This document shows positions 15,566-47,496 of a stretch of 64,000 nt of DNA, one piece after another (the first letter of the stretch is position 1; the number at the start of each line of letters is the position of its first letter). The notes under the pieces are model-generated. The model was not told the DNA's origin and ran no database searches. It saw only the letters and a list, made by a program, of their open reading frames with translations. Origin of the DNA: Owenia fusiformis (Eukaryota; Annelida; Polychaeta; Sabellida; Oweniidae); contig CAIIXF020000001.1 of assembly GCA_903813345.2 (NCBI GenBank), positions 27,145,915 through 27,209,914 on the forward strand, given 5' to 3'. The position numbers and the translations under genes are program-made.

Positions 15566-15778
15566 ATCTACTAAAACAAAATTATGCTCAAATAAAGTTT
15601 TTCTAGGCTTATTTTAAATATCATTCAATCCAATAGGTAACAATGATACATCATTGTAATTTGATCGAGGAATCTTCAATTTCAAATAAGCTCCTAAAAA
15701 GAAATATAAGATAAGTTTAAGATTTTTTTGTTTCCTATATGATCAAATAATTTTTAAGCAAATTCAAGTAATTCTTAC

Positions 15779-17842
15779 CAGGCAATGTGGTTGTTTCTGT
15801 GGTTATTTGGGCCCCTTTGGTGGTTACTGCAGAACCATCAGTGGTTACTTTAGCCTCTTCAGTGGTTACTACAACCCCTTTAGTGGTAAGTGCAGCCTCA
15901 TCAGTGGTAATTGCAGCTCCATCAGTGGTTACTGCAGCCCCATCAGTGGTTACTTTAGCCTCTTCAGTGGTTAGTACAGCCTCTTTAGTAGTAAGTGAGG
16001 CCCCATCAGTGCTTATTGCAGCTCCATCAGTGGTTATTGAGGCCAAATCAGTGGTTACTGCAGCCCCATCAGTGGTTACTGCAGCCCTTTTAGTGGTAAC
16101 TGCAGCTCCATCAGTGGTTACTGCAGCCCCATCAGTGGTTACTGCAGCCCCATCAGTGGTTACTGCAGCCTCTTTAGTGGTAAGTGAGGCCCCATCAGTG
16201 GTTAGTACAGCCCCTTCAGTGGTTACTACAACCCCTTTAGTGGTAAGTGCAGTCTCATCAGTGGTAACTGCAGCTCCATCAGTGCTTACTGCAGCCCCAT
16301 CAGTGCTTACTGCAGCCCCATCAGTGGTTACTGCAGGCTCTTTAGTGGTAAGTGAGGCCCCATCAGTGGTTACTGCAGCTCCATCAGTGGTTACTGCGGC
16401 CCCATCAGTGGTTACTGCAGCCCCATCAGTGGTTACTGCAGCCTCTTTAGTAGTAAGTGAGGCCCCATCAGTGGTTAGTACAGCCCCTTCAGTGGTTACT
16501 ACAACCCCTTTAGTGGTAAGTGCAGTCTCATCAGTGGTAACTGCAGCTCCATCAGTGCTTACTGCAGCCCCATCAGTGCTTACTGCAGCCCCATCAGTGG
16601 TTACTGCAGGCTCTTTAGTGGTAAGTGAGGCCCCATCAGTGGTTACTGCAGCTCCATCAGTGGTTACTGAGGCCCCATCAGTGGTTACTGCAGCCCCATC
16701 AGTGATTCCTGTAACCCCTTCAGTAGTTACTGCAGTCTTATCAGTGGTAACTGCAGCCCCATCAGTGGTTACTGCAGCCCCATCGGTGGTTACTGCAGCT
16801 CCTTCAGTGGTTACTGCGGCCCCATCAGTGGTTACTGCAGCCCCATCAGTGGTTACTGCAGCTCCTTCAGTGGTTACTGCGGCCCCATCAGTGGTAACTG
16901 CAGCCCCAGCAGTAGTTACTGCAGCCCGATCAGTGGTTACTGCGGCCCCATCAGTGGTTACTGCAGCCTCTTCAGTGGTTAGTACAGCCTCTTTAGTGGT
17001 AAGTGAGGCCCCATCAGTGGTTACTGCAGCCCCATCAGTGGTTACTGCAGCCCAACCAGTAGTTACTGCAGCCTGAGCAGTGGTTACTGCAGCCCCATCA
17101 GTGGTTACTGCAGCCCCATCAGTGGTTACTGCAGCCCCATCAGTAGTTACTGCAGCCCGATCAGTGGTTACTGCAGCCCCATCAGTGGTTACTGCAGCCC
17201 GATCAGAGGTTACTGCAACCCCATCAGTGGTTACTGCAGCCCCATCAGTGGTTACTGCAGCCCCATCAGTAGTTACTGCAGCCCGATCAGTGGTTACTGC
17301 AGCCCCATCAGTGGTTACTGCAGCCCGATCAGAGGTTACTGCGGCCCCATCAGTGGTCACTGCAGCCCGATCAGTGGTTACTGCGGCCCCATCAGTGGTT
17401 ACTGCGGCCCCATCAGTAGTTACCGCAGCCCCATCAGTAGTTCCAGCAGCCCCATCAGTAGTTACTGCAGCCCGATCAGTGGTTACTGCAGCCCCATCAG
17501 TAGTTACTGCAGCCCGATCAGTAGTTACTGCAGCCGGATCAGTGGTTACTGCAGCCCCATCAGTAGTTACTGCAGCCCCATCAGTAGTTACTGCAGCCCC
17601 ATCAGTAGTTACTGCAGCCCGATCAGTGGTTACTGCGGCCCCATCAGTAGTTACTGCAGCCCCTTTAGTAGTTATTGCAGCCCCATCAGTAGTTACTGCA
17701 GCCCCATCTGTGGTTACTGCAGCCCCATCAGTGGTCACTGCAGCCCCTTCAGTAGTTATTACTACCCCTTCACTGGTCACTGCTGCTCCTTCTGTGGTTA
17801 CTCTAGTCCCTTCAGTAGTAATACCTTGTATGACTGTCGTGT
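15779..17842 (-). CDS. Gene A exon 4: 2.06-kb exon of AAVTTDG heptad repeats
   Basis: An open exon of 2,064 bp (688 codons). The acceptor is CATTTCCAG|AC at 17843 and the donor is TTGCCTG|GTAAGA at 15779; both are phase 1, so it is interchangeable in frame with exons 2 and 3. After the lead DTTVIQGITTEGT it is close to 95 copies of a heptad, AAVTTDG, varied by R, E, K and S replacements and by SLTTKE inserts. The VTT core at a fixed place in a 7-residue unit suggests common descent with the EITT heptads of exon 3. It is Thr-rich, lacks Cys, and is likely an O-glycosylated spacer. The good donor means at least one more exon is expected downstream. Without splicing, the frame would run on to a stop at 15735. 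I could not identify the terminal exon. Confidence 0.85.
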
Positions 17843-18630
17843 CTGGAAATGGTACAATGTGAGTAATTATGGTCATTTAATAATATGGGACTTGGCAGTT
17901 CTGATTTGATGTAATAAATGGTACCATGGGTACTGGGCTCACTTGATACCCATACATTTTAATTATACAAATAGAAGCAATAATTCCTGAACTTGGCTGC
18001 AAAATTTTTGTCCAGACTTTAATTTCATGCTAAAGTGACGGCCCTTTTGAATTTTTCTAGTTATTTTTTTCTAGACTTACTACATATCTGGAGATATAAT
18101 GCAACTCCAAACGATAATTCCTTAGCTTTGGCTTCAAAATCAAAAGTGATATTTGCCACCGGACAAAAGTGGTGGCCATTTTGATTTTTTTAATAATCTA
18201 TATTGAGATTTTTACACCTTATTGGTTATACTGTACATAATATGAGTATATACTTGTAAAAATGCATGTTGAGTCAAAGCTGAATTTTGTGCAACAAAAA
18301 TCACAGCCATTTTAAAAATACAAGATTTTGAACCAGGAGTTATTGGTTTATAAAATAATATATAAAAATAACTTTGAACAGGTATACTACTGACAGAGGT
18401 TTTTAAATGTGTCAGACAGGTAGGCAGTGAGTGATTGCAATAGCTCACAATGTGAGCTAATAAAAACCGAAATTGAAAATAGATGGGAATGGGGAATTAG
18501 AGTGCAAGTTATTTTTACTACTACAAAATATTAAACTGCATGCAACTAGATGCAGGAGAAATTAGTTTGAATCTACTTTATTAGTTCATGCCTGATACAT
18601 TGTTAAGTAAAATAACATGCGTGTGAGTAC
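17843..18630 (-). other. Intron 3 of gene A, holding a repeat of a second dispersed family
   Basis: A 788-bp intron with donor G|GTACTC and acceptor TTTCCAG. About 17925-18452 is a repeat that starts near ACCATGGGTACTGGGCTCAC and ends near AGCTCACAATGTGAGCTAAT, with GTGGCCATTTTG blocks inside. A related start lies at about 48742 (GTACCATGGGTGCTGTGTTC). Confidence 0.6.
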
Positions 18631-21600
18631 CTTGTTTGGTATATGTAGGGTTAGTAATATCAGTAAACTCATGCGTTGTAATTTCAGCTGGTGCAGTGGT
18701 TATTTCTGATTCAGTGGTTATTTCAGCTGCTCCAGTGGTTATTTCAACTCCTTCTGTGGTAATTTCAGCTAATGCACTGGTTATTTCAGCTGATTCAGTG
18801 GTTATTTCAGCTGCTCCAGTGGTTATTTCAACTCCTTCTGTGGTAATTTCAGCTGATGCACTGGTTATTTCAGCTCCTTTTGTGGTAATTTCAGCTGCTC
18901 TAGTGGTTATATCAGCTGTTCCAGTGGTTATTTCAGCTGCTCCAGTAGTTATTTCAGCTGCTCCAGTGGATATTTCAGCTGGTGTACTAGTGATTACAGC
19001 TTCTTCTGTGGTAGTTCCAGCCGCTCCAGTGGTTATTTCAGAGGCTCTAGTAGTTATTTCAGTTGCTCCAGTGGTTATTCCAGCTGGTGTGCTGGTTATT
19101 TCAGCTCCTTCTGTGGTTATTTCAGCTGATGCACTGGTTATTCCAGCTCCTTCAGTGGTTATTTCAGCTGGTGCACTGGTTATTTCAACTCCTTCCGTGG
19201 TCATTTCAGCTGGTGAACTGGTTAATCCAGCTCCATCAGTGGTAATTTCAGTTGATGCACTGGTTATTTCAGCTGGTGCACTGGTCATTTCAGCTTCTTT
19301 TGTTGTAATTTCAGATTGCGCACTGGTTATTTCAGCTATTTCTGTGGTTGTTTCAGCTGCTCCAGTGGTTATTTCAGCTTGTGAACTGGTTATTTCAGCT
19401 TCTTTTGTTGTAATTTCAGCTGGTGCACTGGTTATTTCAGCTCCTTCACTGGTTATTTCAGCTGGTAAACTGGTAAGTTCAGCTTCTTTTGTGGTTATTT
19501 CAGATGGTTCACTGGTAATTTCACCTCCTTCTGTGGTTATTTCAGCTGGTGCACTGGTTATTTCAACTCCTTCTGTGGTCATTTCAGCTGGTGAACTGGT
19601 TAATCCAGCTCCATCAGTGGTAATTTCAGTTGATGCACTGGTTATTTCAGCTGGTGCACTGGTCATTTCAGCTTCTTTTGTTGTAATTTCAGATTGTGCA
19701 CTGGTTATATCAGCTCCTTCTGTGGTAATTTCAGCTGGTGCACTGGTTATTTCAGCTTCTTTTGTTGTAATTTCAGATGGTGCACTGGTTATTTCAGCTT
19801 CTTTTGTTGTAATTTCAGATGGTGCACTGGTTATTTCAGCTTCTTTTGTTGTAATTTCAGATGGTGCACTGGTTATTTCAGCTTCTTTTGTTGTGATTTC
19901 AGATGGTGCACTGGTTATTTCAGCTTCTTTTGTTGTAATTTCAGATTGTGCGCTGGTTATTTCAGCTCCTTCTGTGGTAATTTCAGCTGGTGCACTGGTT
20001 ATTTCAGCTGGTGCACTGGTCATTTCAGCTTCTTTTGTTGTAATTTCAGATGGTGCACTGGTTATTTCAGCTTCTTTTGTTGTAATTTCAGATGGTGCAC
20101 TGGTTATTTCAGCTTCTTTTGTTGTGATTTCAGATGGTGCACTGGTTATTTCAGCTTCTTTTGTTGTAATTTCCGATTGTGTGCTGGTTATTTCAGCTCC
20201 TTCTGTGGTAATTTCAGCTGGTGCACTGGTTATTTCAGCTGGTGCACTGGTTATTTCAGCTTCTTTTGTTGTAATTCCAGATGGTGCACTGGTTATTTCA
20301 CCTTCTTTTGTTGTAATTTCAGATGGTGCACTGGTTATTTCAGCTTCTTTTGTTGTAATTTCAGATGGTGCACTGGTTATTTCAGCTTCTTTTGTTGTAA
20401 TTTCAGATGGTATACTGGTTATTTCAGCTTCTTTTGTTGTAATTTCAGATGGTGCACTGGTTATTTCAGCTTCTTTTGTTGTAATTTCAGATGGTGCACT
20501 GGTTATTTCAGCTTCTTTTGTTGTGATTTCAGATGGTGCACTGGTTATTTCAGCTTCTTTTGTTGTAATTTCAGATTGTGCACTGGTTATTTCAGCTATT
20601 TCTGTGGTTTTTTCAGCTTCTTTTGTTGTAATTTCAGATGGTGCACTGGTTATTTCAGTTTCTTTTGTTGTAATTTCAGATGATGCACTGGTTATTTCAG
20701 CTCCTACTGTGGTAATTTCAGATGGTGCACTGGTTATTTCAGCTTCTTTTGATGTAATTTCATATGGTGCACTGGTTATTTCAACTCCATCTGTGGTGAT
20801 TTCAGCTGGTGCACTGGTTATTTCAGCTCCTTCAGTGGTTATTTCAGCTGGTAAACTGGATAGTTCATCTTCTTTTGTGGTTATTTCAGATGGTTCACTG
20901 GTTATTTTAACTCCTTCTGTGGTAATTTCAGCTGGTGCACTGGTTATTTCAGCTCCTTTAGTGGTAATTTCAGCTGCTGCACTGGTAATTTCAGTTTTTT
21001 TGGTGGTGATTTCAGCTGGTTCACTGGTTATACCAGGTATTTCAGTGGTTATTTCAACTTGTTCTCTAGTGGTTATTTCAGCTACTGTGGTGGTTATTTC
21101 AGCTGCCCCAGTGGTAATTTCAGCAGAGTCTGTGGTTATTTCAGCTCCTTCAGTAGTTATTTCAGCTGATCCAGTGGATATTTGAGCTGGTGCAGTGGTT
21201 ATTTCAGCTCCTTTAGTGGTTATTTCAGCTGCTCCAGTAGTTACTTCCACTGCTCCAGTGGTAATTTCAGCAGGGTCAGTAGTTATTTCCACTGCTCCAG
21301 TGGTTATTTCAGCTCCTTCAGTGGTTATTTCAGCTGGTGCACTGGTTATTTCAGCTCCTTCAGTAGTTATTTCAGCTGATCCAGTGGTTATTTCAGCAGG
21401 GTCAGTTGTTATTTCAGCTGCTCCAGTGGTCATTTCAGCTGATCCAGTGGTTAATTCAGCTGGTAAACTGGTTATTTCAGCTGCCCCACTAGTTATTTCC
21501 ACTGCTCCAGTGGTTATTTCAGCAGTGTCAGTTGTTATTTCAGCTGCTCCAGTGGTCATTTCAGCAGGATCAGTGGTTATTTCAGGTCCTTCAGTAGTTA

Positions 21601-24600
21601 TTTCCACTGCTCCAGTGGTTATTTCAGCTGGTGCACTGGTTATTTCAGCTCCTACTGTGGTAATGTCAGCTGGTGCACTGGTTTTTTCAGCTTCCCCAGT
21701 AGTTATTTCCACTGCTCCAGTGGTTATTTCAGCAGGGTCAGTTGTTATTTCAGCTGATCTTGTGGTCATTTCAGCAGGATCAGTAGTTATTTCAGGTCCT
21801 TCAGTAGTTATTTCCACTGCTGCAGTGGTTATTTCAGCTGGTGCACTGGTTCTCTCAGCTGCCCCAGTAGTTATTTCAACTGCACCAGTGGTTATTTCAG
21901 CAGGGTCAGTTGTTATTTCAGCTGCTCCAGTGGTCATTTCAGCAGGATCAGTGGTTATTTCAGGTCCTTCAGTAGTTATTTCAGCTGCCCCAGTAGTTAT
22001 TTCCACTGCACCAGTGGTTATTTCAGCAGGATCAGTGGTTATTTCAGCAGGGTCAGTGGTAATTTTAGCTGCTCCAGTGGTCATTTCAGCAGGATCAGTG
22101 GTTATTTCAGCTCCTTTAGTGGTTATTTCAGCTGCTCCAGTACTTATTTCCACTGCTCCAGTGGTTATTTTAGCAGGGTCAGTAGTTATTTCCACTGCTC
22201 TAGTGGTTATTTCAGCTCCTTCAGTGGTTATTCCAGCTGGTGCACTGGTTATTTCAGCTCCTTCGGTAGTTATTTCAGCTGATCCAGTGGTTAATTCAGC
22301 TTGTGCACTGGTTATTTCAGCTCCTTCAGTAGTTATTTCAGCTGATCCAGTGGTTATTTCAGCAGGGTCAGTTGTTGATTCAGCTGCTCCAGTGGTCATT
22401 TCAGCTGATCCAGTGGTTAATTCAGCTGGTGCACTTGTTATTTCAGCTCCTACTGTGGTAATTTCAGCTGGCAAACTGGTTATTTCAACTGCCCCACTAG
22501 TTATTTCCACTGCTCCAGTGGTTATTTCAGCAGGGTCAGTTGTTATTTCAGCTGCTCCAGTGGTCATTTCAGCAGGATCAGTGGTTACTTCAGGTCCTTC
22601 AGTAGTTATTTCCACTGCTCCAGTGGTTATTTCAGCTGGTGCACTGGTTATTTCAGCTCCTACTGTGGTAATGTCAGCTGGTGCACTGGTTTTTTCAGCT
22701 GCCCCACTAGTTATTTCCACTGCTCCAGTGGTTATTTCAGCAGGGTCAGTTGTTATTTCAGCTGCTCCAGTGGTCATTTCAGCAGGATCAGTGGTTATTT
22801 CAGGTCCTTCAGTAGTTATTTCCACTGCTCCAGTGGTTAATTCAGCTGGTGCACTTGTTATTTCAGCTCCTACTGTGGTAATTTCAGCTGGTAAACTGGT
22901 TATTTCAGCTGCCCCACTAGTTATTTCCACTGATCCAGTGGTTATTTCAGCAGGGTCAGTTGTTATTTCAGCTTTTCCAGTGGTCATTTCAGCAGGATCA
23001 GTGGTTATTTCAGGTCCTTCAGTAGTTATTTCAGCTGCCCCAGTAGTTATTTCCACTGCTCCAGTGGTTATTTCAGCAGGATCAGTGGTTATTTCAGCTG
23101 CCCCAGTAGTTATTTCAGGTCCTTCAGTAGTTATTTCCAATGCTCCAGTGGTTAATTCAGCTGGTGCACTTGTTATTTCAGCTCCTACTGTGGTAATTTC
23201 AGCTGGTAAACTGGTTATTTCAGCTGCCCCAGTAGTTATTTCAGCTGGTGCACTGGTTATTTCAGCTGCCCCAGTAGTTATTTCCACTGCTCCAGTGGTT
23301 AGTTCAGCTGCTCTAGTAGTGATTTCAGCAGGAGCAGTGGTTATTTCGGGTCCTTCAGTAGTTATTTCCACTGCTCCAGTGGTTATTTCAGCTGGTGCAC
23401 TGGTTATTTCAGCTGCCCCAGTAGTTAATTCCACTGCTGCAGTGGTTATTTCAGCAGGTGCACTGGTTATCTCAGCTGACCCAGTAGTTATTTTAACTGC
23501 TCCAGTGGTTATTTCAGCTGCTCTAGTAGTTATTTCAGCGGAATCAGTGGTTATTTCAGCTGCTCCAGTGGTCATTTCAGCTGGTGCACTGGTTATTTCA
23601 GCTGCCCTAGTAGTTATTTCCACTGCTCCAGTGGTTATTTCAGCTGCTCTAGTGGTCATTTCAGCAGGATCAGTGGTTATTTCAGGTCCTTTAGTAGTTA
23701 TTTCAGCTGCACCAGTAGTAATTTCCACTGCTCCAGTGGTTATTTCAGCAGGGTCAGTAGTTATTTTAGCTGATCTTGTGGTCATTTCAGCAGGATCAGT
23801 GGTTATTTCAGGTCCTTCAGTAGTTATTATCACTGCTCCAGTGGTTATTTCAGCTTGTGCACTGGTTATCTCAGCTGCCCCAGTAGTTATTTCCACTGCT
23901 CCAGTAGTCATTTCAGCAGGATCGGTGGTTATTTCAGCAGGGTCAGTGGTTATTTCGAATGCTCCTGTGGTCATTTCAGCAGGATCAGTGGTTATTTCAG
24001 CTGCCCCAGTAGTTATTTCCACTGCTCCAGTGGTTATTTCAGCAGGGTCAGTGGTTATTTCAGCTGCTCTAGTGGTCATTTCAGGTCCTTCAGTAGTTAT
24101 TTCAGCTGCCCCAGTAGTTATTTCCACTGCTCTAGTGGTTCTTTCAGCAGGGTCAGTGGTTATTTCAGCTGCTCCAGTGGTCATTTCAGCAGGATCAGTG
24201 GTTATTGCAGGTCCTTCAGTAGTTATTTCAGCTGCCCCAGTAGTTATTTCCACTGCTCCAGTGGTTATTTCAGCAGGATCAGTGGTTATTTCAGCTGCCC
24301 CAGTAGTTATTTCCACTGCTCCAGTGGTTATTTCAGCAGGGTCAGTGGTTATTTCAGCTGCTCTAGTGGTCATTTCAGGTCCTTCAGTAGTTATTTCAGC
24401 TGCCCCAGTAGTTATTTCCACTGCTCTAGTGGTTCTTTCAGCAGGGTCAGTGGTTATTTCAGCTGCTCCAGTGGTCATTTCAGCAGGATCAGTGGTTATT
24501 TCAGGTCCTTCAGTAGTTATTTCAGCTGCCCCAGTAGTTATTTCCACTGCTCCAGTGGTCATTTCAGCAGGATCAGTGGTTATTTCAGGTCCTTCAGTAG

Positions 24601-27600
24601 TTATTTCCACTGCTCCAGTGGTTATTTCAGCTGCTCTAGTGGTCATTTCAGCAGGATCAGTGGTTATTTCAGGTCCTTTAGTAGTTATTTCAGCTGCACC
24701 AGTAGTAATTTCCACTGCTCCAGTGGTTATTTCAGCAGGGTCAGTAGTTATTTTAGCTGATCTTGTGGTCATTTCAGCAGGATCAGTGGTTATTTCAGCT
24801 GCCCCAGTAGTTAATTCCACTGCTGCAGTGGTTATTTCAGCAGGTGCACTGGTTATCTCAGCTGACCCAGTAGTTATTTTAACTGCTCCAGTGGTTATTT
24901 CAGCTGCTCTAGTAGTTATTTCAGCGGAATCAGTGGTTATTTCAGCTGCTCCAGTGGTCATTTCAGCTGGTGCACTGGTTATTTCAGCTGCCCTAGAAGT
25001 TATTTCCACTGCTCCAGTGGTTATTTCAGCTGCTCTAGTGGTCATTTCAGCAGGATCAGTGGTTATTTCAGGTCCTTTCGTAGTTATTTCAGCTGCACCA
25101 GTAGTAATTTCCACTGCTCCAGTGGTTATTTCAGCAGGGTCAGTAGTTATTTTAGCTGATCTTGTGGTCATTTCAGCAGGATCAGTGGTTATTTCAGGTC
25201 CTTCAGTAGTTATTATCACTGCTCCAGTGGTTATTTCAGCTTGTGCACTGGTTATCTCAGCTGCCCCAGTAGTTATTTCCACTGCTCCAGTAGTCATTTC
25301 AGCAGGATCGGTGGTTATTTCAGCAGGGTCAGTGGTTATTTCGAATGCTCCTGTGGTCATTTCAGCAGGATCAGTGGTTATTTCAGCTGCCCCAGTAGTT
25401 ATTTCCACTGCTCCAGTGGTTATTTCAGCAGGGTCAGTGGTTATTTCAGCTGCTCTAGTGGTCATTTCAGGTCCTTCAGTAGTTATTTCAGCTGCCCCAG
25501 TAGTTATTTCCACTGCTCTAGTGGTTCTTTCAGCAGGGTCAGTGGTTATTTCAGGTCCTTCAGTAGTTATTTCAGCTGCCCCAGTAGTTATTTCCACTGC
25601 TCCAGTGGTTATTTCAGCAGGATCAGTGGTTATTTCAGCTGCCCCAGTAGTTATTTCCACTGCTCCAGTGGTTATTTCAGCAGGGTCAGTGGTTATTTCA
25701 GCTGCTCTAGTGGTCATTTCAGGTCCTTCAGTAGTTATTTCAGCTGCCCCAGTAGTTATTTCCACTGCTCTAGTGGTTCTTTCAGCAGGGTCAGTGGTTA
25801 TTTCAGCTGCTCCAGTGGTCATTTCAGCAGGATCAGTGGTTATTTCAGGTCCTTCAGTAGTTATTTCAGCTGCCCCAGTAGTTATTTCCACTGCTCCAGT
25901 GGTCATTTCAGCAGGATCAGTGGTTATTTCAGGTCCTTCAGTTGTTATTTCCACTGCTCCAGTGGTTATTTCAGCTGCTCTAGTGGTCATTTCAGCAGGA
26001 TCAGTGGTTATTTCAGGTCCTTCAGTAGTTATTTCAGCTGCACCAGTAGTAATTTCCACTGCTCCAGTGGTTATTTCAGCAGGGTCAGTAGTTATTTTAT
26101 CTGATCTTGTGGTCATTTCAGCAGGATCAGTGGTTATTTCAGGTCCTTCAGTAGTTATTATCACTGCTCCAGTGGTTATTTCAGCTGGTGCACTGGTTAT
26201 CTCAGCTGCCCCAGTAGTTATTTCCACTGCTCCAGTAGTCATTTCAGCAGGATCAGTGGTTATTTTAGCAGGGTCAGTGGTTATTTCAAATGCTCCCGTG
26301 GTCATTTCAGCAGGATCAGTGGTTATTTCAGCTGTCCCAGTAGTTATTTCCACTGCTCCAGTGGTTATTTCAGCAGGGTCAGTGGTTATTTCGGCTGCTC
26401 TAGTGGTCATTTCAGGTCCTTCAGTAGTTATTTCAGCTGCCCCAGTAGTTATTTCCACTGCTCTGGTGGTTCTTTCAGCAGGGTCAGTGGTTATTTCAGC
26501 TGCTCTAGTGGTCATTTCAGCAGGATCAGTGGTTATTTCAGGTCCTTCAGTAGTTATTTCAGCTGCCCCAGTAGTTATTTCCACTGCTCCAGTGGTTATT
26601 TCAGCAGGGTCAGTAGTTATTATAGCTGATCCAGTGGTTATTTCAACTGCTCTAGTGGTCATTTCAGCAGGATCAGTGGTTATTTCAGCTGCCCTAGTAG
26701 TTATTTCCACTGCTCCAGTGGTTATTTCAGCAGGGTCAGTGGTTATTTCAGCTGATCTTGTGGTCATTTCAGCAGGATCAGTAGTTATCTCAGGTCCTTC
26801 GGTAGAAATTTCAGCTGCCCCAGTAGTTATTTCCACTGCTCCAGTGGTTATTTCAGCAGGGTCAGTAGTTATTTCAGCTGATCCAGTGGTTATTTCAACT
26901 GCTCCAGTGGTTATTTCAGCAGGGTCAGTTGTTATTTCAGCTTCTGCAGTGGTTATTTCAGCAGGGTCAGTGGTAATTCCAGCTTCTCCAGTGGTCATTT
27001 CTGCAGGATCAGTGGTTATTTCAGCTCCTTCAGTAGTTATTTCCACTGCTCCAGTGGTTATTTCAGCAGGGTCAGTTGTTATTTCAGCTGCTCCAGTGGT
27101 CATTTCAGCAGGATCAGTGGTTATTTCAGGTCCTTCAGTAGTTATTTCAGTTGCACCAGTAGTAATTTCCACTGCTCCAGTGGTTATTTCAGCAGGGTCA
27201 GTATTTATTTTAGCTGATCTTGTGGTCATTTCAGCAGGATCAGTGGTTATTACAGCTCCTTCAGTAGTTATTATCATTGCTCCAGTGGTTATTTCAGCTG
27301 GTGCACTGGTTATCTCAGCTGCCCCAGTAGTTATTTCCACTGCTCCAGTAGTCATTTCAGCAGGATCAGTGGTTATTTCAGCAGGGTCAGTGGTTATTTC
27401 GAATGCTCCCGTGGTCATTTCAGCAGGATCAGTGGTTATTTCAGCAGCCCCAGTAGTTATTTCCACTGTTCCAGTGGTTATTTCAGCAGGGTCAGTAGTT
27501 ATTTCAGCTGCTCTAGTGGTCATTTCAGCAGGATCAGTGGTTATTTCAGGTCCTTCAGTAGTTATTTCAGCTGCCCTAGTAGTTATTTCAACTGCTCCAG

Positions 27601-29214
27601 TGGTTATTTCAGCAGGGTCAGTGGTTATTTCAGCTGCCCTAGTAGTTATTTCAGCGGCTCTAGTGGTCATTTCAGCAGGATCAGTGGTTATTTCAGGTCC
27701 TTCAGTAGTTATATCAGTTGCCCCAGTAGTTATTTCCACTGCTCCAGTGGTTATTTCAGCACGGTCAGTAGTTATTTTAGCTGATCCAGTGGTTATTTCA
27801 ACTGCTCTAGTGGTTATTTCAGCAGGATCACTGGTTATTTCAGCTGCCCTAGTAGTTATTTCCACTGCTCCAGTGGTTATTTCAGCAGAGCCAGTGGTTA
27901 TTTCAGCTGCCCTAGTAGTTATTTCCACTGCTCCAGTGGTTATTTCAGCAGGGTCAGTAGTTATTTCAGCTGATCCAGTAGTTATTTCAACTGCTCCAGT
28001 GGTCATTTCAGCAGGATCAGTGGTTATTTCAGCTGCCCTAGTAGTTATTTCCACTGTTCTAGTGGTTATTTCAGCAGGACCAGTGGTTATTTCAGGTCCT
28101 TCAGTAGTTATTTTAGCTGCCCCAGTAGTTATTTCCACTGCTCCAGTAGTTATTTCCACTGCTCCAGTGGTTATTTCAGCTGCTCCAGTGGTTATTTCAG
28201 CTGCTTCAGTTGTCATTTCAGCTGATCCAGTGGATATTTCAGCTGCTTTAGTGGTCATTTCAAGGTCAGTGGTTATTTCAGCTTGTGCACTGGTTATTTC
28301 AGCTACTTCTGTGGTAATTTCAACTGCTCCAGTGGTTATTTCAGCTGATCCAGTGGATATTTCAGCTGGTCCAGTGCTCGTTTCAGTTAGTGCACTGGTT
28401 ATTTCAGCTTCTTCAGTGGTAATTTCAGCTGGTGTGCTGGTGATTTCAGGTACTTCAGTGGTCATTTCAGCAGCTCTAGTGGTTGTTTCAGCTGCTTCAG
28501 TGGTAATTGCAGCAGGGTAGGTGGTTATTTCAGCTCCTTCAGTAGTTATTTCAGCTGATCCAGTGATAATTTCAGCAGAGTCGGTGGTTATTTCAGCTCC
28601 TTCAGTAGTTATTGCAGCTGATTCAGTGGTTATTTCAGCTGGTGCAGTGGTTATTTCAGCTCCTTTTGTGGTTATGTCAGCAATGTCAGTGGTTATTTCA
28701 GGTCCTTCAGTAGTTATTTCAGCTGGTACACTGGTTATTTCAGTTCCCTTTGTGGTGATTTCATCTGGTGCACTGGTTATTTCTGCTGCTCCCGTGGTGA
28801 TTTCAGCTGCTCTGGTGGATATTTCATCTGTTCGAGTGGTCATTTCAACAAGGTCAGTGGTTATTTCAGCTCCTTCAGTAGATATTTCAGCTTCTCCAGT
28901 GGTTATTTCAGCTATTTTAGTTGTGAAATCAGTATGTGCAGTGGTTCTTTCAGCTGGTGCACTGGTTATTTCAGCGGCCCCAGTGGTTACTTCAGAAGCT
29001 CCAGTGGTTACTTCAGAAGCTCCAGTGGTTACTTCAGAAGCTCTAGTGGTTACTTCAGAAGCTCTAGTGGTTATTTCAGCAGCCCCAGTGGTTACTTCAA
29101 AAGCTCTAGTGGTTACTTCAGAAGCTCCAGTGGTTATTTCAGCAGCTCCAGTGGTTTTTTCAGCTGATCCAGAGGTTATTTCAGTTGTTACAGTGGTAAT
29201 TGGATCAGTGGTAT
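18631..29214 (-). CDS. Gene A exon 3: 10.6-kb exon of 7-residue EITT mucin repeats
   Basis: A single open exon of 10,584 bp (3,528 codons). The acceptor is CTTACAG|AT at 29215 and the donor is AACAAG|GTACTC at 18631; both are phase 1. No in-frame stop occurs between the acceptor and the first in-frame Met at 28843, so that Met is internal. The unit is seven residues (21 bp), xxEITTx. There are three zones. The first, near 29130-28970, is ASEVTTG-type. The long middle, about 28.9-21.2 kb, mixes AEITTGA, VEITTGA, AEITTDP and PEITTEG. The last, about 20.8-19.2 kb, alternates SEITTKE and AEITSAP, a 14-residue double heptad. The exon is rich in Glu as well as Thr, so it is acidic and probably O-glycosylated, with no Cys. 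A 1,386-bp block (66 x 21) is duplicated at about 23.7 and 25.1 kb. The exon ends in a unique tail, HEFTDITNPTYTKQ. Confidence 0.88.
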
Positions 29215-32400: not shown

Positions 32401-35400
32401 CATTGATTCAGATGTTGTCTGACCTTCTGTGGTCATTGTATCAGATGTTGCCTGACCTTCTGTGGTCATTGTACCAGATGTTGTCTGACTTAATGTTGTC
32501 ATTGCATCGGATGTTGTCTGACCTTTTGTCGTCATTGTATCAGATGTTGTCTGATCTACTGTAGTCATTGAATCAGATGTTGTCTGTGCTACTGTTGTCA
32601 TTGTATCAGATGTTGTCTGACCTTCTGTGGTCATTGTATCAGATGGTGTCTGACTTTCTGTGGCCATTGTATCTGATGTTGTCTGACCTTCTGTCGTCAT
32701 TGTATCAGATGTTGTCTGAGCTACTGCGGTCATTGTGTCAGATGTTGTCTGATCTCCTGTGGTCATTGATTCAGATGTTGTCTGACCTTCTGTGGTCATT
32801 GTATCAGATGTTGCCTGACCTTCTGTGGTCATTGTACCAGATGTTGTCTGACCTAATGTTGTCATTGCATCGGATGTTGTCTGACCTTTTGTCGTCATTG
32901 TATCAGATGTTGTCTGATCTACTGTAGTCATTGAATCAGATGTTGTCTGTGCTACTGTTGTCATTGTATCAGATGTTGTCTGACCTTCTGTGGTCATTGT
33001 ATCAGATGGTGTCTGACTTTCTGTGGCCATTGTATCTGATGTTGTCTGACCTTCTGTCGTCATTGTATCAGATGTTGTCTGACCTTCTGTGGTCATTGTA
33101 TCAGATGTTGTCTGACCTTTTGTCATCATTGTATCAGATGTTGTCTGATCTACTGTAGTCATTGAATCAGATGTTGTCTGTGCTACTGTTGTCATTGTAT
33201 CAGATGTTGCCTGACCTTCTGTGGTCATTGTATCAGATATTGTCTGATCTTCTGTGGTCATTGTATCAGATATTGTCTGGGCTACTGTGGTCATTGTATC
33301 AGATGTTGTCTGACCTTCTGTGGTCATTGTATCAGCTGTTGTCTGAGCTACTGTGGTCATTGTATCAGATATTGTCTGACCTACTGTGGTCATTGTATCA
33401 GATGTTGTCTGGGCTTCTGTGGTCATTGTGTCAGATGTTGTCTTATCTCCTGTGGTCATTGTATCAGGTGTTGTAGGGGCCACTTTGGTCATTGTATCAG
33501 ATGTTGTCTGACCTTCTGTCGTCATTGCATCAGATGTTGTCTTGGCTTCTGTGGTCGTTGTGTCAGAAGTTGTCTCATCTCCTGTGGTCATTGTATCAGA
33601 TGTTATAGGGGCTACTGTGGTCATTGTATCAGATGTTGTCTGACCTACTGTTGTCATTGTATCAGATGATGTCTGACCTTCTGTGGTCACTGTATCAGAT
33701 GTTGCCTGACCTTCTGTGGTCATTGTACCAGATGTTGTCTGACCTAATGTTGTCATTGTATCTGATGTTGTCTGACCTTCTGTCGTCATTGTATCAGATG
33801 TTGTCTGACCTTCTGTGGTCATTGTATCAGATGTTGTCTGACCTTTTGTCGTCATTGTATCAGATGTTGTCTGATCTACTGTAGTCATTGAATCAGATGT
33901 TGTCTGTGCTACTGTTGTCATTGTATCAGATGTTGTCTGACCTTCTGTGGTCATTGTATCAGATGGTGTCTGACTTTCTGTGGTCATTGTATCTGATGTT
34001 GTCTGACCTTCTGTCGTCATTGTATCAGATGTTGTCTGACCTTCTGTGGTCATTGTATCAGATGTTGTCTGACCTTTTGTCGTCATTGTATCAGATGTTG
34101 TCTGATCTACTGTAGTCATTGAATCAGATGTTGTCTGTGCTACTGTTGTCATTGTATCAGATGTTGTCTGACCTTCTGTGGTCATTGTATCAGATATTGT
34201 CTGATCTTCTGTGGTCATTGTATCAGATATTGTCTGGGCTACTGTGGTCATTGTATCAGATGTTGTCTGACCTTCTGTGGTCATTGTATCAGCTGTTGTC
34301 TGAGCTACTGTGGTCATTGTATCAGATATTGTCTGACCTACTGTGGTCATTGTATCAGATGTTGTCTGGGCTACTGTGGTCATTGTATCAGATGTTGTCT
34401 GACCTTCTGTGGTCATTGTATCAGCTGTTGTCTGAGCTACTGTGGTCATTGTATCAGATATTGTCTGACCTACTGTGGTCATTGTATCAGATGTTGTCTG
34501 GGCTACTGTGGTCTTTGGATCAGATATTGTCTGGGTTACTGTGGTCATTGTGCCAGATGTTGTCTGATCCCCAATGGTCATTGAATCAGATGTTGTCTGG
34601 GCTACTGTGGTCATTGTATCGGATGTTGTCTGACCTGCTGTCGTCATTGTATCAGATGTTTTCTGACCTTTTGTGGTCATTGTATCAGATGTTGTCTGAC
34701 CTTCTGTGGTCATTGTATTAGATGTTGTCTGACCTTCTGTGGTCATTGTATCAGATCTTGTCTGGGCTACTGTGGTCATTGTGTCAGATGTTGTCTGAGC
34801 TACCGCAGTCATTGTGTCAGATGTTGTCTGATCTCCTGTGGTCATTGATTCAGATGTTGTCTGACCTTCTGTGGTCATTGTATCAGATGTTGTCTGAGCT
34901 ACTGTGGTCATTGTGTCAGGTGTTGTCTGATCTCCTGTGGTCATTGATTCAGATGTTGTCTGATCTACTGTCGTCATTGTATAAGATGTTGTCTGACCTT
35001 CTGTTGTCATTGTATCAGATGTTGTCTGATCTTCTGTGGTCATTCTATCAGATGTTGTCTGGGCAACTGTTGTCACTGTATCAGATGTTGTCTGACCTTC
35101 TGTCGTCTTTGTATCAAATGTTGTCTGACCTTCTGTGGTCATTGTATAAGATGTCGTCTGACCTTCTGTGGTCATTGTATAAGATGTTGTCTGACCTTCT
35201 GTGGTCATTGTATCTGATGTTGTCTGACCTTCTGTGGTCATTGTATCAGATGTTGTCTGACCTTCTGTTGTCATTGTATCAGATGTTGTCTGATCTACTG
35301 TGGTCATTGTATCAGATGTTGTCTGGGCTACTGTTGTCATTGTTTCAGATGTTGTCTGACCTTCTGTGGTCATTGTATCAGATGTTGTCTGACCTTCTGT

Positions 35401-38400
35401 GGTCATTGTATCAGATATTGTCTGATCTACTGTGGTCATTGTATCAGATGTTGTCTGATCTTCTGTGGTCATTGTATCAGATGTTGTCTGACCTTCTGTG
35501 GTCATTGTATCAGATGTTGACTGAACTTCTGTGGTCATTGCATCAGATGTTGTCTTAGCTTTTGTGGTCATTGTATCAGACGTTATCTGACCTTCTGTGG
35601 TCATCGTATCAGATGTTGTCTGAGCAACTGTGCTCATTGTATCAGATGTTGTCTGGGCTACTGTTGTCATTGTATCAGATATTGCCTGGCCTTCTGTCGT
35701 CATTGTATCAGATGTTGTCTGGTCTCTTGTGGTCATTGTATCTAATGTTGTCTGACCTTTTGTGATCATTGTATCAGATGTTGTCTGACCTTCTGTGGTC
35801 ATTGTATCAGATGTTGTCTGAGCTACTGTGGTCATTGTGTCAGATGTTGTCTGATCTCCTGTGGTCATTGATTCAGATGTTGTCTGATCTACTGTGGTCA
35901 TTGTATCAGATGTTGTCTGACCTTCTGTAGTCATTGTATCAGATGTTGTCTGACCTTCTGTGGTCATTGTATCAGATGTTGTCTGACCTTCTGTGGTCAT
36001 TGTATCAGATGTTGTCTGACCTTCTGTTGTCATTGCATCGGATGTTGTCTGTGCTACTGTTGTCATTGTATCAGATATTGTCTGGTCTATTGTGGTCATT
36101 GTATCAGATGTTGTCTGATCTACTGTGGTCATTGTATCAGATGTTGTCTGGGCTACTGTGGTCATTGTGTCAAAAGTTGTCTCATCTCCTGTGGTCATTG
36201 TATCAGATGTTGCAGGGGCTACTGTGGTGATTGTATCAGATGTTGCCTGACCTACTGTTGTCATTGTTTCAGATGTTGTCTGACCTTCTGTGGTCACTGT
36301 ATCAGATGTTGCCTGACCTTCTTTGGTCATTGTATCAGATGTTGTCTGACCTAATGTTGTCATTGCATCGGATGTTGTCTTGGCTACTGTGGTCATTGAA
36401 TCAGATGGTGTCTGACTTTCTGTGGTCATTGTATCAGATGTTGTCTGACCTTCTGTGGTCATTGTATCAGATGTTGTCTGACCTTTTGTCGTCATTGTAT
36501 CAGATGTTGTCTGATCTACTGTAGTCATTGAATCAGATGTTGTCTGTGCTACTGTTGTCATTGTATCAGATGTTGTCTGACCTTCTGTGGTCATTGTATC
36601 AGATGTTGTCTGACCTTCTGTGGTCATTGATTCAGATGTTGTCTGACCTTCTGTGGTCATTGTATCAGATGTTGTCTGAGCTACTGTGGTCATTGTGTCA
36701 GGTGTTGTCTGATCTCCTGTGGTCATTGTTGATTCAGATGTTGTCTGATCTACTGTCGTCATTGTATCAGATGTTGTCTGACCTTCTGTTGTCATTGTAT
36801 CAGATGTTGTCTGATCTTCTGTGGTCGTTCTATCAGATGTTGTCTGGGCAACTGTTGTCACTGTATCAGATGTTGTCTGACCTTCTGTCGTCTTTGTATC
36901 AAATGTTGTCTGACCTTCTGTGGTCATTGTATCAGATGTCGTCTGACCTTCTGTGGTCATTGTATAAGATGTTGTCTGACCTTCTGTGGTCATTGTATCT
37001 GATGTTGTCTGACCTTCTGTGGTCATTGTATCAGATGTTGTCTGACCTTCTGTGGTCATTGTATCAGATGTTGTCTGACCTTCTGTGGTCATTGTATCAG
37101 ATGTTGTCTGATCTACTGTGGTCATTGTATCAGATGTTGTCTGATCTTCTGTGGTCATTGTATCAGATATTGTCTGACCTTCTGTGGTCATTGTATCAGA
37201 TGTTGACTGAACATCTGTGGTCATTGCATCAGATGTTGTCTTAGCTTTTGTGGTCATTGTATCAGATGTTATCTGACCTTCTGTGGTCATTGTATCAGAT
37301 GTTGTCTGAGCTACTGTGGTCATTGTATCAGATGTTGTCTGGGCTACTGTTGTCATTGTATCAGATATTGCCTGACCTTCTGTCGTCATTGTATCAGATG
37401 TTGTCTGGTCTCTTGTGGTCATTGTATCTAATGTTGTCTGACCTTTTGTGATCATTGTATCAGATGTTGTCTGACCTTCTGTGGTCATTGTATCAGATGT
37501 TGTCTGAGCTACTGTGGTCATTGTGTCAGATGTTTTCTGATCTCCTGTGGTCATTGATTCAGATGTTGTCTGATCTACTGTGGTCATTGTATCAGATGTT
37601 GTCTGACCTTCTGTAGTCATTGTATCAGATGTTGTCTGACCTTCTGTGGTCATTGTATCAGATGTTGTCTGACCTTCTGTGGTCATTGTATCAGATGTTG
37701 TCTGACCTTCTGTTGTCATTGTATCAGATGTTGTCTGATCTACTGTGGTCATTGTATCAGATGTTGTCTTGGCTACTGTGGTCATTGTGTCAAAAGTTGT
37801 CTCATCTCCTGTGGTCATTGTATCAGATGTTGTCTTTGCTACTGTGGTCATTGTGTCAAAAGTTGTCTCATCTCCTGTGGTGATTGTATCAGATGTTGCC
37901 TGACCTACTGTTGTCATTGTTTCAGATGTTGTCTGACCTTCTGTGGTCACTGTATCAGCTGTTGCCTGACCTTCTGTGGTCATTGTATCAGATGTTGTCT
38001 GACCTAATGTTGTCATTGCATCGGATGTTGTCTTGGCTACTGTGGTCATTGAATCAGATGATGTCTGACTTTCTGTGGTCATTGTATCTGATGTTGTCAG
38101 ACCTTCTGTCGTCATTGTATCAGATCTTGTCTGACCTTCTGTAGTCATTGAATCAGATGTTGTCTGTGCTACTGTTGTCATTGTATCAGATGTTGTCTGA
38201 CCTTCTGTGGTCATTGTATCAGATGTTGTCTGACCTTCTGTGGTCATTTTATCAGGTGTTGTCTGAGCTACTGTGGTCATTGTATCAGATATTGCCTGAC
38301 CTACTGTGGACATTGTATCAGATGTTGTCTGGGCTACTGTGGTCATTGGATCAGATATTGTCTGGGCTACTGTGGTCATTGTGTCAGATGTTGTCTGATC

Positions 38401-40079
38401 CCCAGTGGTCATTGAATCAGATGTTGTCTGGGCTACTGTGGTCATTGTATCAGATGTTGTCTGACCTTTTGTGGTCATTGTATTAGATGTTGTCTGGGCT
38501 ACTGTTGGCATTGTATCAGATGTTGTCTGACCTTCTGTGGTCATTGTATCAGATGTTGTCTGACCTTCTGTGGTCATTGTATCAAATGTTGTCTGATCTA
38601 CTGTGGTCAATGTATCAGATGTTGTCTGACCTTCTGTTGTCATTGCATCAGATGTTGTCTGGGCTTCTGTGGTCATTGTATCAGATGTTGTCTGATCTAC
38701 TGTGGTCATTGTATCAGATGTTGTCTGATCTACTGTGGTCATTGTATCAGATGTTGTCTGACCTTCTGTCGTCATTGCATCAGATGTTGTCTGGGCTTCT
38801 GTGGTCATTGTATCAGATGTTGTCTGATCTACTGTGGTCATTGTATCAAATGTTGTCTCGGCTACTGTGGTCATTGTGTCAGAAGTTGTCTGATCTCTTG
38901 TGGTCATTGTATCTGATGTTGTCTGACCATCTGTGGTCATTGAATCAGATGTTGTCTGATCCCCAGTGGTCATTGAATCAGATGTTGTCTGGGCTTCTTT
39001 GGTCATTGTATCGGATGTTGTCTGACCATCTGTGGTCATTGTATCAGATGATGTCTGACCTACTGTGGTCATTGTATCCGATGTTGTCTGACCATCTGTG
39101 GTCATTGAATCAGATGTTGTCTGTCCTCCTGTTGTCATTGCATCGGATGTTGTCTGACCATCTGTGGTCATTGTATCAGATGTTGTCTGACCTACTGTGG
39201 TCATTGTATCAGATGTTGTCTGGGCTACTATGGTCATTGTATCAGATGTTGTCTGGGCTACTGTGGTCATCGTATCAGATGTTGTCTGACCTTCTGTGGT
39301 CATTGTATCAGATGTTTTCTGACCTTCTGTGGTCATTGTATATGATGTTGTCTGACCATCTGTGGTCATTGTATCAGATGTTGTCTGGGCTACTGTGGTC
39401 ATCGTATCAGATGTTGTCTGATCTTCTGTGGTCATTGTATCAGATGTTGTCTGACCTTCTGTGGTCATTGTATCAGATGTTGTCTGGGCTACTGTGGTCA
39501 TCGTATCAGATGTTGTCTGTCCTCCTGTTGTCATTGCATCAGATGTTTTCTGACCTTCTGTGGTCATTGTATATGATGTTGTCTGACCATCTGTGGTCAT
39601 TGCATCGGATGTTCTCTGGGCTTCTGTGGTCATTGTGTAATATGCTGTCTGGGCTACTGTGGTCATTGTATCAGATGTTGTCTGACCTACTGTGGTCATT
39701 GTATCAGATGTTGTCTGACCTACTGTGGTCATTGTATTAGATGTTGTCTGACCTACTGTGGTCATTGTATCAGATGGTGTCTGACCTTCTGTGGTCATTG
39801 TATCAGATGTTGTCTGACCTTCTGTGGTTATTGATTCAGATGTTGTCTGGTCTACTCTGGTTGTTGTTTCAGATGTTGAATGGTCTAATGTGGTCATTGT
39901 ATCAGATGTTGTCTGACCTACAGTGGTCATTGTATTAGATGTTGTCTGGTCTATTGTTGTCGTTGTATCAGATGTTGTCTGGTCTACTGTGGTGATTTTT
40001 ATGTTAGTTGTGCTATCTGTGGCATCTAACTCTGTGGAATATATAGTACTGTATTCAGGCATGCTGTTTGAAGAAAAAT
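29463..40079 (-). CDS. Gene A exon 2: 10.6-kb exon of 11-residue Thr-rich mucin repeats
   Basis: A single open exon of 10,617 bp (3,539 codons, exact multiple of three). The acceptor is TTTTTGCAG|AT at 40080 and the donor is CTAG|GTATTA at 29463; both are phase 1. After a short unique lead (DFSSNSMPEYSTIYST) it is almost entirely an 11-residue (33-bp) unit, TT[E/V]GQTTSDTM with variants [E/V/K/G/I][G/D/A]Q and M/S/A changes. About 320 copies fit the length. Thr and Ser dominate, Cys is absent and there is no globular domain, which fits a mucin PTS region acting as an O-glycan scaffold. Larger blocks are duplicated: offsets between matching blocks are multiples of 33 bp, apart from one 3-bp insertion near 36729 (giving SESTMTT). 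The rival acceptor AAACAG|C at about 40064 would break the frame. The plus-strand frames here are shadows. Confidence 0.88.
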
Positions 40080-40792: not shown

Positions 40793-41355
40793 GGGAAATA
40801 TATGAAGGGAAAAGTGGTGAAGTTTTATGGCAGTAAGGTTTCCATTAATAAAGTGTCTTTCTTACTCTCTGGTTGAGGGAAATATATGAAGGGAAAAGTG
40901 GTGAAGTTTTATGGCAGTAAGGATTCCATTAATAAAGTGTCTTTCTTACTCTCTGGTTGAGGGAAATATATGAAGGGAAAAGTGGTGAAGTTTTATGGTA
41001 GTAAGGATTCCATTAATAAAGTGTCTTTCTTACTCTCTGGTTGAGGGAAATATATGAAGGGACAAGTGGTGAAGTTTTATGGCAGTAAGGATTCCATTAA
41101 TAAAGTGTCTTTCTTACTCTCTGGTTGAGGGAAATATATGAAGGGAAAAGTGGTCAAGTTTATGGCAGTAAGGATTCCATTAATAAATAAAGTGTCTTTC
41201 TTACTCTCTGGTTGAGGGAAATATATGAAGGGAAAAGTGGTGAAGTTTTATGGCAGTAAGGATTTCATTAATAAAGTGTCTTTCTTACTCTCTGGTTGAG
41301 GGAAATATATGAAGGGAAAAGTGGTGAAGTTCTATGGCAGTAAGGATTGCATTAA
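40793..41355. repeat. 84-bp tandem satellite, about 7 copies
   Basis: GGGAAATATATGAAGGG recurs at 40793, 40877, 40961, 41045, 41129, 41216 and 41300. Each unit also has GTGGTGAAGTTTTATGGCAG and GTGTCTTTCTTACTCTCTGG. The copies are nearly identical. One interval is 87 bp because of a TAAA insertion and a 1-bp loss. Confidence 0.9.
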
Positions 41356-45512: not shown

Positions 45513-45615
45513 CATTTTTAAGGATAAGCCTATATTGGAACAAATTGGTTCTAATGAATTTGGACATTTGTGCATCTTACATCTTTAATGAAATCCTTTT
45601 TTGATCAGAGATCTA

Positions 45616-46288
45616 AAGGTCCATGTGCAGTATGGCAAGTTCTTTTAGACGGTCATATCTTTCACCATGAGTACTTTCTGGCCATAAATACAATGGCTTT
45701 TATTAAAACAATATGTTTTCTTTCAAGTGAAGTCCCCATGATAGTAAAATATCAATCCAACTCTCTGAAAAATTATAGATTAGGACCCCACCTTGTCACT
45801 TTTCTAAAAATGTAAGGCTTATTTTCTAAAAAGAGGATCTTGTTTTTCTTAATTTAAAAATATCAAAAGTTTCTTCTACACTATATTAATAACTTCTGAA
45901 AAGGGGATGGGTATTATAATGCGATAAAGTTAAAAACCACATTTCCCATTTTATTTTCGAAAATTGATATCTTCAAAACTAGACTTTCAATACAATTCTA
46001 CTTTTGAAGATGTTTTAGACCCCTGGCCTTGTTGAATAATCTTTTCATGCAATAAAAATCAGAAAAAGAAGATCCTCTTTTGAGCAAATAAGTTCAACAT
46101 TTTGAAAAAATGGTTGATGTGGGGACCCTATTCATAATTTTTTGAATTATTCGATTGATCAGGGGGGGACTTCAATTGAAAGAAAACACATTGTTTTAAT
46201 AAAAACCACTGTATTTATGCCCAGAAAGTATTCATGGTGAAAGATATGACTGTCTAAAATCACTTGCCATACTGCACATGGACCTTTT
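45616..46288. repeat. Second foldback, arms about 230 bp
   Basis: AAGGTCCATGTGCAGTATGG (45616) is inverted near the right end (CCATACTGCACATGGACC, about 46266). Further paired blocks are AAACAATATGTTTTCTTTCA with TGAAAGAAAACACATTGTTT, and AAGAGGATCTTGTTTTTCTT with its partner at about 46062. The spacer is roughly 45850-46055. Confidence 0.65.
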
Positions 46289-47060
46289 TTCAGAAAGCAA
46301 AAAAATCATAATCTCCACAATTTTAAACTAGCTTTCTCTTCCGATCCCTAAAGAGGTTGTTCTGATTTTTTGTTCTGATTTATAGAATAGGTCATTTTAA
46401 TGTTTAAGAAACTAACTGAGTAGTAGAGGCAATCACCATGGTATAACTATATGTGAATTTTCAATCAAGTTTCAGGTATATACAAAAGGTACATAAATGG
46501 AATACCTATAGTTTTATATCCTATAGTGATATATTTAAAAAAAAGTATATCAATTTGATTTAAAATAAACAACAGTTTTATCCATTCTGATGCCATTTTG
46601 AATTTAGCGACAATTTAGTTTGAATCAATCTCACATCAAAGAGGATCTGAGAAACTAAGAGAGGTCCCCAAAATTAAACATGCCCAAATTTCAAAACACT
46701 CCTGTTTTTCGAGCAATTTTTGTATTTGGGTTACCTCAGAGTCAGGGAGGATGAGTGAGTGAGGGAGGTTGGACCCCAGCTTTGCAAGAGTATAGTGTGA
46801 TGAAAGTTCTTAATTATTCTTATGTATAGTAAGAATATAATTTATAGTAAGTGTAGCAATAATAGTAGAAGAATAGTAAGTGTAGGGTAAAGCAAAAGAT
46901 CACATTATATTTTAGTGACCAGAGATCCCTTTTTAAATAAGGTAAAATTGTAAAGTACTATGGAGAACTTACCACTATTAAACCATGCATTATATACACT
47001 ACATGTTATACCAAATTCACACATTTTTATTTTAATTTTTTTTATTTTAATGTATCTTAC

Positions 47061-47496
47061 CAGAGGTTGTTTGAGCAGGAGGATTATCTTCTGTTGTCAT
47101 AGCAACTGTTCCTGTATCAGTTACAAGAGCAGTAGATTGACTATTTGACTCAGTGTCTGTAATAATACTTGAAACTTTCTCAGAGTTTGTGGTTATTTGA
47201 CTAAGTGCAGTCTCTGAAGTTACTCTGGAATCTGTTGAAGCTGCTAATGTTATTTCAGCAACTGTTGTATCTAATTGAGCTGTAGTCTGACTCTGACTAC
47301 TTGTGTTCATTTTTTGACTAGATCTAGTAGTGGAATGTGCCATAGTTACGGAATCGGTTGCTATAGTAACAGCTGAATCTGTCATACCTTCTTGTGTCTC
47401 TTTAGTTAGTCCCAAAGTTGTTTCGCTTGATTCACCATTTTTTATTAATCCTAAATTGGCTACAAATGCCAGAAAAATATACATCCTTAACTCCAT
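47061..47496 (-). CDS. Gene A exon 1: signal peptide and Ser/Thr-rich N-terminus of a giant mucin-like protein
   Basis: First coding exon of a secreted mucin-like gene. The ATG at 47496-47494 opens a typical signal peptide: charged start MELR, hydrophobic core MYIFLAFVANLGLI, then a polar region. It is followed by about 120 residues rich in Thr and Ser with no Cys and no clear repeat. The exon ends in ACCTCTG|GTAAGA, a strong donor in phase 1. The leftover G joins AT from the acceptor at 40080-40081 to make Asp. With exons 2-4 the reading frame is about 7,900 residues, which would form a long, densely O-glycosylated rod on or outside epithelial cells (inference from composition). No TATA box is convincing upstream. 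The start is chosen because it is the only ATG giving a signal peptide in the frame that splices onward. A downstream Met (codon 5) is also possible. Confidence 0.8.

Follow-up and report, generated by a model that had tools for sequence, protein, structure and literature searches.

Very large exons have been described in several mucins. Exon 2 of human MUC4 is longer than 12 kb and exon 3 of human MUC16 longer than 21 kb, the latter being described as not encoding tandem repeats (PMC5338267), and according to a preprint, all mucins have a large repeat exon, and in some humans no coding exon is larger than that of MUC12 (PMC13345508). For human MUC4, the domain order NIDO-AMOP-VWD-EGF-transmembrane (TM) has been given, with a putative GDPH cleavage site in VWD (PMC5354666), and MUC4-like proteins with NIDO, AMOP and VWD have been reported from the sea anemone Actinia tenebrosa (PMC9080433). 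Giant-exon mucins and invertebrate MUC4-like proteins are already known. We analysed here a window of 64,000 bp from the 498-Mb genome (498.26 Mb) of the annelid Owenia fusiformis (C1:27145915-27209914; positions given without a contig refer to this window), in which four minus-strand exons, joined by predicted splices, make up a genuine gene that would encode a mucin's extracellular rod. Judging from the sequence, we lean towards exon 4 being spliced, either directly or via a rod exon at about 9282-8677, to an EGF-NIDO-AMOP-VWD-C8-3-EGF module, which would make the product a MUC4-like tethered mucin. No paper on this gene was present among the matches listed for invertebrate MUC4 kin, Owenia mucins and giant mucin exons.

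With human MUC4, as described (PMC5338267, PMC5354666), the locus shares a predicted signal peptide and a giant repeat exon, and then, in the neighbouring module, the order of NIDO, AMOP, VWD and EGF with GDPH in VWD, followed by a hydrophobic stretch that is a candidate TM segment. It differs in that the repeats are distributed over three long exons with unlike units, in that Pro accounts for 2.8% of residues, and in that three EGF exons stand ahead of NIDO; the link between rod and base is here a predicted one. The proteins of A. tenebrosa are alike in NIDO, AMOP, VWD, signal peptide, TM and regions rich in proline, threonine and serine (PTS) of very variable length, and different in the CUB, ZP, FN3 and SEA domains reported to be added to them (PMC9080433). 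Human MUC16 and MUC12 are alike in their very large exons (PMC5338267, PMC13345508) and different in that they are described with SEA domains, not with NIDO-AMOP-VWD (PMC9080433). What sets the Owenia gene somewhat apart is that one rod is spread over three long exons whose units are of two unlike lengths, that its Pro content is very low (a trait common to the five other loci counted, see below), and that a frame stands between rod and base.

All four exons (Table 1) have AG/GT borders, every boundary is in phase 1, and the exons, when joined, give 7,900 codons with 0 stops. The splice junctions are predictions from the sequence. An earlier reading of this DNA (the sequence-only reading) had proposed four minus-strand exons in frame with matching phases, and both their positions and the sizes of the two largest (10,617 and 10,584 bp) were reproduced exactly; its single minus-strand gene of at least 7,900 codons likewise agrees with the predicted borders, their common phase and the lack of stops. 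The gene had also been held to be open at its 3′ end, and exon 4 indeed terminates in a splice donor, in phase 1 and with 7/9 consensus positions.

The open frame was compared with the remaining frames of the same DNA. In the coding frame, 0 stops are found in each of exons 2, 3 and 4, versus 447 and 300 in the other two minus frames of exon 2, 438 and 608 in those of exon 3, and 84 and 96 in those of exon 4; the plus frames contain 34-229, 2-246 and 1-53 stops, respectively. Long plus-strand frames (e.g., 21186-28520) arise as shadow frames from the 21-base period, and exon 2 has no open plus-strand frame. Under neutral drift of the units, modelled as single-base changes from the consensus unit with uniform mutation, approximately 10.2 stops would be expected in exon 2 and 19.2 in exon 3, and none is seen in either. 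The consensus unit of exon 4 reaches a stop by no single-base step, so this exon provides no test. A dN/dS-like ratio was 1.04 for exon 2, 0.67 for exon 3 and 0.61 for exon 4; both this ratio and the stop test used the units in register (217/316, 343/496 and 90/90 in exons 2, 3 and 4). Apart from its missing stops, exon 2 gives no hint of purifying selection.

Composition was calculated for exons 1-4 plus a candidate exon 5 discussed below (7,926 residues): Thr 33%, Ser 7% (Ser+Thr, 3,186 of the 7,926), Asp+Glu 16%, Lys+Arg 2.6%, Pro 2.8% and Cys 0. The N terminus is hydrophobic and signal-peptide-like, as judged by a hydropathy scan and by reading rather than by a dedicated predictor, and a long Ser/Thr-rich tandem-repeat region follows, with arrays of 11- and 7-residue units, as is found in mucins. 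According to Tandem Repeats Finder, exon 2 contains a 33-base unit repeated in 318 copies, exon 4 a 21-base unit in 95 copies and exon 3 a 42/63-base pattern built on a 21-base unit (approximately 500 units), these array lengths being those of one assembly. A 150-residue piece of exon 3 matched exon 4 in five stretches at 41-45% identity. The signal-peptide-like start, the Thr content and the arrays point to a secreted, Thr-rich and almost wholly repetitive chain, as had been proposed. The assignment as a mucin can be kept in part: a mucin-like Ser/Thr repeat rod is present, and the Pro-rich composition of PTS domains is lacking, Pro falling to 0.7% in exon 2. With so little Pro, the chain is best called mucin-like; it is not a PTS domain of the textbook kind. 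Features of gel-forming mucins (N-terminal VWD domains, a C-terminal cystine knot) are absent, with no Cys in exons 1-4 and no such Pfam domain in exons 1 and 4, the two exons that the check covered. Other Pfam matches, to DUF5500 in exon 1 and to DUF6799, ColA_N and PBP-Tp47_a in exon 4, were below cut-off; DGF-1_beta-sheet on exon 4 scored 33.8 bits for a cut-off of 22, but no single stretch passes and we regard it as a repeat artefact. There is 1 N-glycosylation sequon in exon 1 and 0 in exons 2-4, so that any sugars present would be almost exclusively O-linked.

Two further observations concern the window itself. About 560 bases of 5′ flank together with the first 26-27 codons of the giant gene (47418-48056) recur once in the genome, at C9:24179861-24180508, with 95% identity; the copy breaks off after codons 26-27, enters an A-rich tract and resembles a retroposed fragment. 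An open frame at 61463-61011 (minus strand), with a start rich in Ser, Asp and Glu, has no Pfam match.

Downstream of the giant gene and on the same strand lies a module with the order EGFx3-NIDO-AMOP-VWD(GDPH)-C8-3-EGF, followed by a hydrophobic stretch and a tail-like frame; this order was read from domain matches along the strand rather than from an exon-by-exon gene model. The module spans C1:27145909 down to approximately 27126774. Its first EGF exon starts to the left of the window, 6 bases from position 1, and takes a phase-1 intron, the same phase as the exon 4 donor; no EGF-like exon was found before C1:27145909 in a phase-1 exon scan with stricter splice limits, which shorter or oddly spliced exons could escape. 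NIDO, AMOP and VWD stand in MUC4 order in this neighbouring module. Pfam E-values were 3.5e-7, 4.6e-7 and 1.4e-6 for the EGF types, 1.9e-13 and 9.1e-8 for NIDO, 2.1e-6 for C8-3_MUC4, 8.1e-6 and 7.8e-4 for VWD and 5.6e-5 for AMOP. Both NIDO and VWD occur in pieces, GDPH being in the first VWD piece; NIDO and the second VWD piece are above their curated cut-offs, as are two exons for EGF_CA (calcium-binding EGF). Twelve of the 16 downstream frames gave a Pfam match at E up to 0.1. The hydrophobic stretch (C1:27129301), a candidate transmembrane segment, and a basic tail-like frame (27127115), a candidate cytoplasmic tail, were located by inspection. SEA domains, which MUC16 and MUC12 carry rather than NIDO-AMOP-VWD, gave no Pfam match in the 20 frames scanned, which cover the downstream exons only in part.

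Genome searches, with matches paired by position, gave 10 loci with both NIDO and C8-3_MUC4 matches, that of the giant gene included. At 6 of the 9 others (C1:24.96, C7:21.60, C7:14.34, C7:17.54, C12:11.43 and C12:30.54 Mb), a Thr-rich frame lies directly before NIDO, at a distance of 0.56-1.6 kb from its first match (Table 1). These frames contain 26-44% Thr and, in the five counted, 0.4-6.1% Pro. Five of them hold 1-2 Cys, which lie outside the predicted splice borders at C7:17543, C7:14342, C12:11431 and C12:30540; at C7:21604, one Cys is found 12 codons ahead of the stop. A phase-1 donor candidate is present near the 3′ end of all but the C7:21604 frame, and a signal-peptide exon candidate with a phase-1 donor precedes 3 of the 4 Thr-rich loci scanned. 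The giant gene shares with these loci a Thr-rich, low-Pro frame before NIDO, and differs from them in that theirs is one frame directly before NIDO, whereas here there are three exons, three EGF exons and an intervening frame. With Thr-rich frames before NIDO at six loci, exons above 10 kb are unremarkable for this genome and a MUC4-like reading is a natural one. The sequence-only reading had called such exons exceptional; this does not hold, given frames of 7,982 and 4,811 codons (stop to stop) before NIDO in the same genome, the former exceeding either giant exon of the window in length, and given the equally large human MUC4 exon 2 and MUC16 exon 3 (PMC5338267).

The survey of upstream regions took in all nine other loci with both matches and, in addition, C10:5766; outside it lay matches to NIDO alone (on C8 and at 4.0 and 4.15 Mb of C1) and to C8-3 alone (C10:22.1 Mb). 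At C10:5766, which has a NIDO and no C8-3 match, an EGF exon is present, and the 20 kb examined contain no long Thr-rich frame. Just upstream of this locus, at C10:5757773-5761808, are packaging ATPase-like and integrase-like genes (named by eye), with the look of a large DNA transposon. From C1:55420426 onward, VWD search matches fall within open frames of 8,849 and 7,135 codons; the 2,524 codons read of the former hold EGF-like and VWD-type sequence. To our knowledge, an exon of 26 kb, as this frame would represent, would rank among the largest known.

Table 1. Exons and frames of the giant-gene locus, and Thr-rich frames before NIDO at six other loci (lengths of the latter from stop to stop, untrimmed to splice sites).
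Feature	Position	Strand	Size	Description
Exon 1	47061..47496	-	436 bp	145 codons; ATG, signal-peptide-like stretch, then Thr/Ser-rich; donor in phase 1
Exon 2	29463..40079	-	10,617 bp	~318 copies of 11-residue unit QTTSDTMTTxx; 41% Thr
Exon 3	18631..29214	-	10,584 bp	~500 copies of 7-residue unit EITTxxx
Exon 4	15779..17842	-	2,064 bp	~95 copies of 7-residue unit VTTDGAA; ends in phase-1 donor
Exon 5 candidate (possible terminal exon)	15614..15693	-	26 codons, then stop	preceded by an 85-bp intron; support from its acceptor only
N-x-T sequon frame (NTTGIYD)	8677..9343	-		phase-1 donor; start exon (ATG 9343, signal-peptide-like) or internal rod exon
Thr-rich frame before NIDO	C7:17543		755 codons	
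Thr-rich frame before NIDO	C7:21604 (C7:21620472-21606040)		4,811 codons	
Thr-rich frame before NIDO	C7:14342		1,364 codons	
Thr-rich frame before NIDO	C12:11431		410 codons	
Thr-rich frame before NIDO	C12:30540		1,127 codons	
Thr-rich frame before NIDO	C1:24964 (C1:24939598-24963543)		7,982 codons, 23.9 kb	Cys-free

Going upstream from EGF-NIDO towards exon 4, the first long coding frame encountered is that at 9343-8677, with approximately 15 units of 21 bases encoding N-T-T sequons. Two readings suit it: a second start, or one more exon of the rod, in which case the pyrimidine tract ahead of that exon only resembles a signal peptide when translated. An internal rod exon is possible because phase-1 acceptor candidates exist inside it: at 9282, where the hydrophobic stretch ends (63% pyrimidines, but with AAG), at 9240 (CAG) and 9183 (47% each) and at 9063 (37%), the candidate at 9240 equalling the exon 2 acceptor in pyrimidine content. 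Four DNA matches to the repeat part of the frame, at 70-73% identity, lie on C12 and C8, and an OCRE match on the frame was below the Pfam cut-off. No C-terminal domain was noticed by eye between exon 4 and 9343 among minus-strand frames of at least 40 residues. The same interval contains a 2.7-kb tandem duplication (9569-12244 and 12256-14934, 93.7% identity).

Several findings weigh against a rod joined to this base. Exon 4 is 15.8 kb from the first EGF exon and 18.9 kb from the first NIDO match, versus the much shorter distances given above for the six loci. The 9343-8677 frame is nearer to the module, has an equally good phase-1 donor and a signal-peptide-like start of its own and, if it is a start exon, could own the base; and 85 bp past exon 4 there is a good acceptor that could open a terminal exon. 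Within the module, AMOP (23.7 vs. 25 bits) and the first VWD piece (20.2 vs. 22.9) are under their curated cut-offs, no Pfam match was obtained for L007:8326-8631, L007:5577-5939, L007:860-1201 and L008:4537-4785 (a second AMOP guess among them), and the hydrophobic scan matched stretches in other frames too. As to the other loci, phase-0 donor candidates are also present near the 3′ ends of five of the six Thr-rich frames (the exception being C1:24964), C7:21604 having phase-0 candidates only, and no Thr-rich exon passed the filters at C7:16578 (20 kb read), C2:35281 (10 kb read) or C11:14356. The last of these has, before NIDO/C8-3, a 5,393-codon open frame with Cys, EGF domains and a different long repeat (C11:14373668-14357490).

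From the sequence, the gene may thus take any of four courses past exon 4: rod joined to base directly, rod joined via the 9343-8677 frame, two separate genes, or two starts on one base. The exon 4 donor agrees with the sequence-only reading of a gene open at its 3′ end, and the 9343-8677 frame leaves its route from there uncertain. Two adjoining genes are a less probable arrangement, to be taken seriously. The giant gene would end near exon 4 (e.g., at 15614), its product being a soluble, cysteine-free, Thr-rich secreted mucin of approximately 7,926 residues (808 kDa before sugars), and 9343-8677 would be the start exon of a separate MUC4-like gene whose rod is short and N-glycosylated. The start and the phase-1 donor of the latter frame and its position closest to the module are as this arrangement would have them, and the acceptor at 15693 has 84% pyrimidines, with a stop 26 codons later and scored repeat matches starting only further 3′, at 15569. 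(The idea that the exon 5 candidate is itself a transposon copy is unsupported, non-self matches beginning at 15569 and below among the 40 scored of 488 candidates.) Nevertheless, a terminal exon requires no phase match, so that chance is enough to produce one; its 26 residues include no Thr, and the nearest AATAAA and ATTAAA are at 14100 and 15372. The acceptor candidates inside 9343-8677 also count against two genes, the hydrophobic start being perhaps just a pyrimidine tract read as protein, and so do the long Thr-rich exons before NIDO at the six other loci. We consider it rather unlikely, and less probable than two genes, that two start sites share one base; EGF-NIDO-AMOP-VWD would then receive, in phase 1, one of two rods, the giant one (acidic, O-glycosylated, 7,900 residues or more) or a short N-x-T one.

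Other alternatives concern the rod itself. That the exons are coding but do not all belong to one transcript, exon 1 beginning, for instance, another message and exons 2-4 being alternatives, is improbable. Intron 1 is 7 kb long, the exon 2 acceptor has pyrimidines at only 47% and the exon 2 donor agrees with 5/9 consensus positions, all of which would suit separate transcripts; strand, order, phase and composition are, however, all consistent with one, and no further mucin-type exon is evident in intron 1 among the best 25, by Ser/Thr/Pro score, of 46 phase-1 candidates of at least 60 bases. Satellite-like DNA with a frame open by accident is very improbable indeed. Short-period tandem arrays, shadow frames on the plus strand and an exon 2 without an excess of silent changes (ratio 1.04) are what such DNA might show, but 0 stops are seen for approximately 29 expected over exons 2 and 3, a start codon with a signal-peptide-like stretch is present and the splice borders match. 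Furthermore, 150-residue pieces of exons 2 and 3 are at most 40% identical to anything outside the giant gene (398 and 517 candidates, respectively, of which the best 150 each were scored).

The chain would enter the secretory pathway via its predicted signal peptide, and the Thr and Ser of the rod would probably receive many O-glycans, giving a long, negatively charged, cysteine-free brush. Since the rod has no Cys, it would not cross-link itself into a gel through disulphides. The GDPH in the VWD part corresponds to the putative MUC4 cleavage site; if the rod is joined to the MUC4-like base, as we favour, a non-covalent bond at this site could tether it to the cell through a predicted membrane anchor and allow it to be shed. 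Such a molecule may serve as a surface coat, in lubrication or as a barrier.

Should the locus prove to have two rods, the cell would pick coat length and sugar type through promoter choice, and such a pair of starts would offer a clean example of glycan-type switching by this means. The MUC4-like loci of this genome, with Thr-rich frames of 410-7,982 codons, form a natural series for the growth and shrinkage of mucin rods, and they are material for asking how splicing copes with exons of 10-24 kb.

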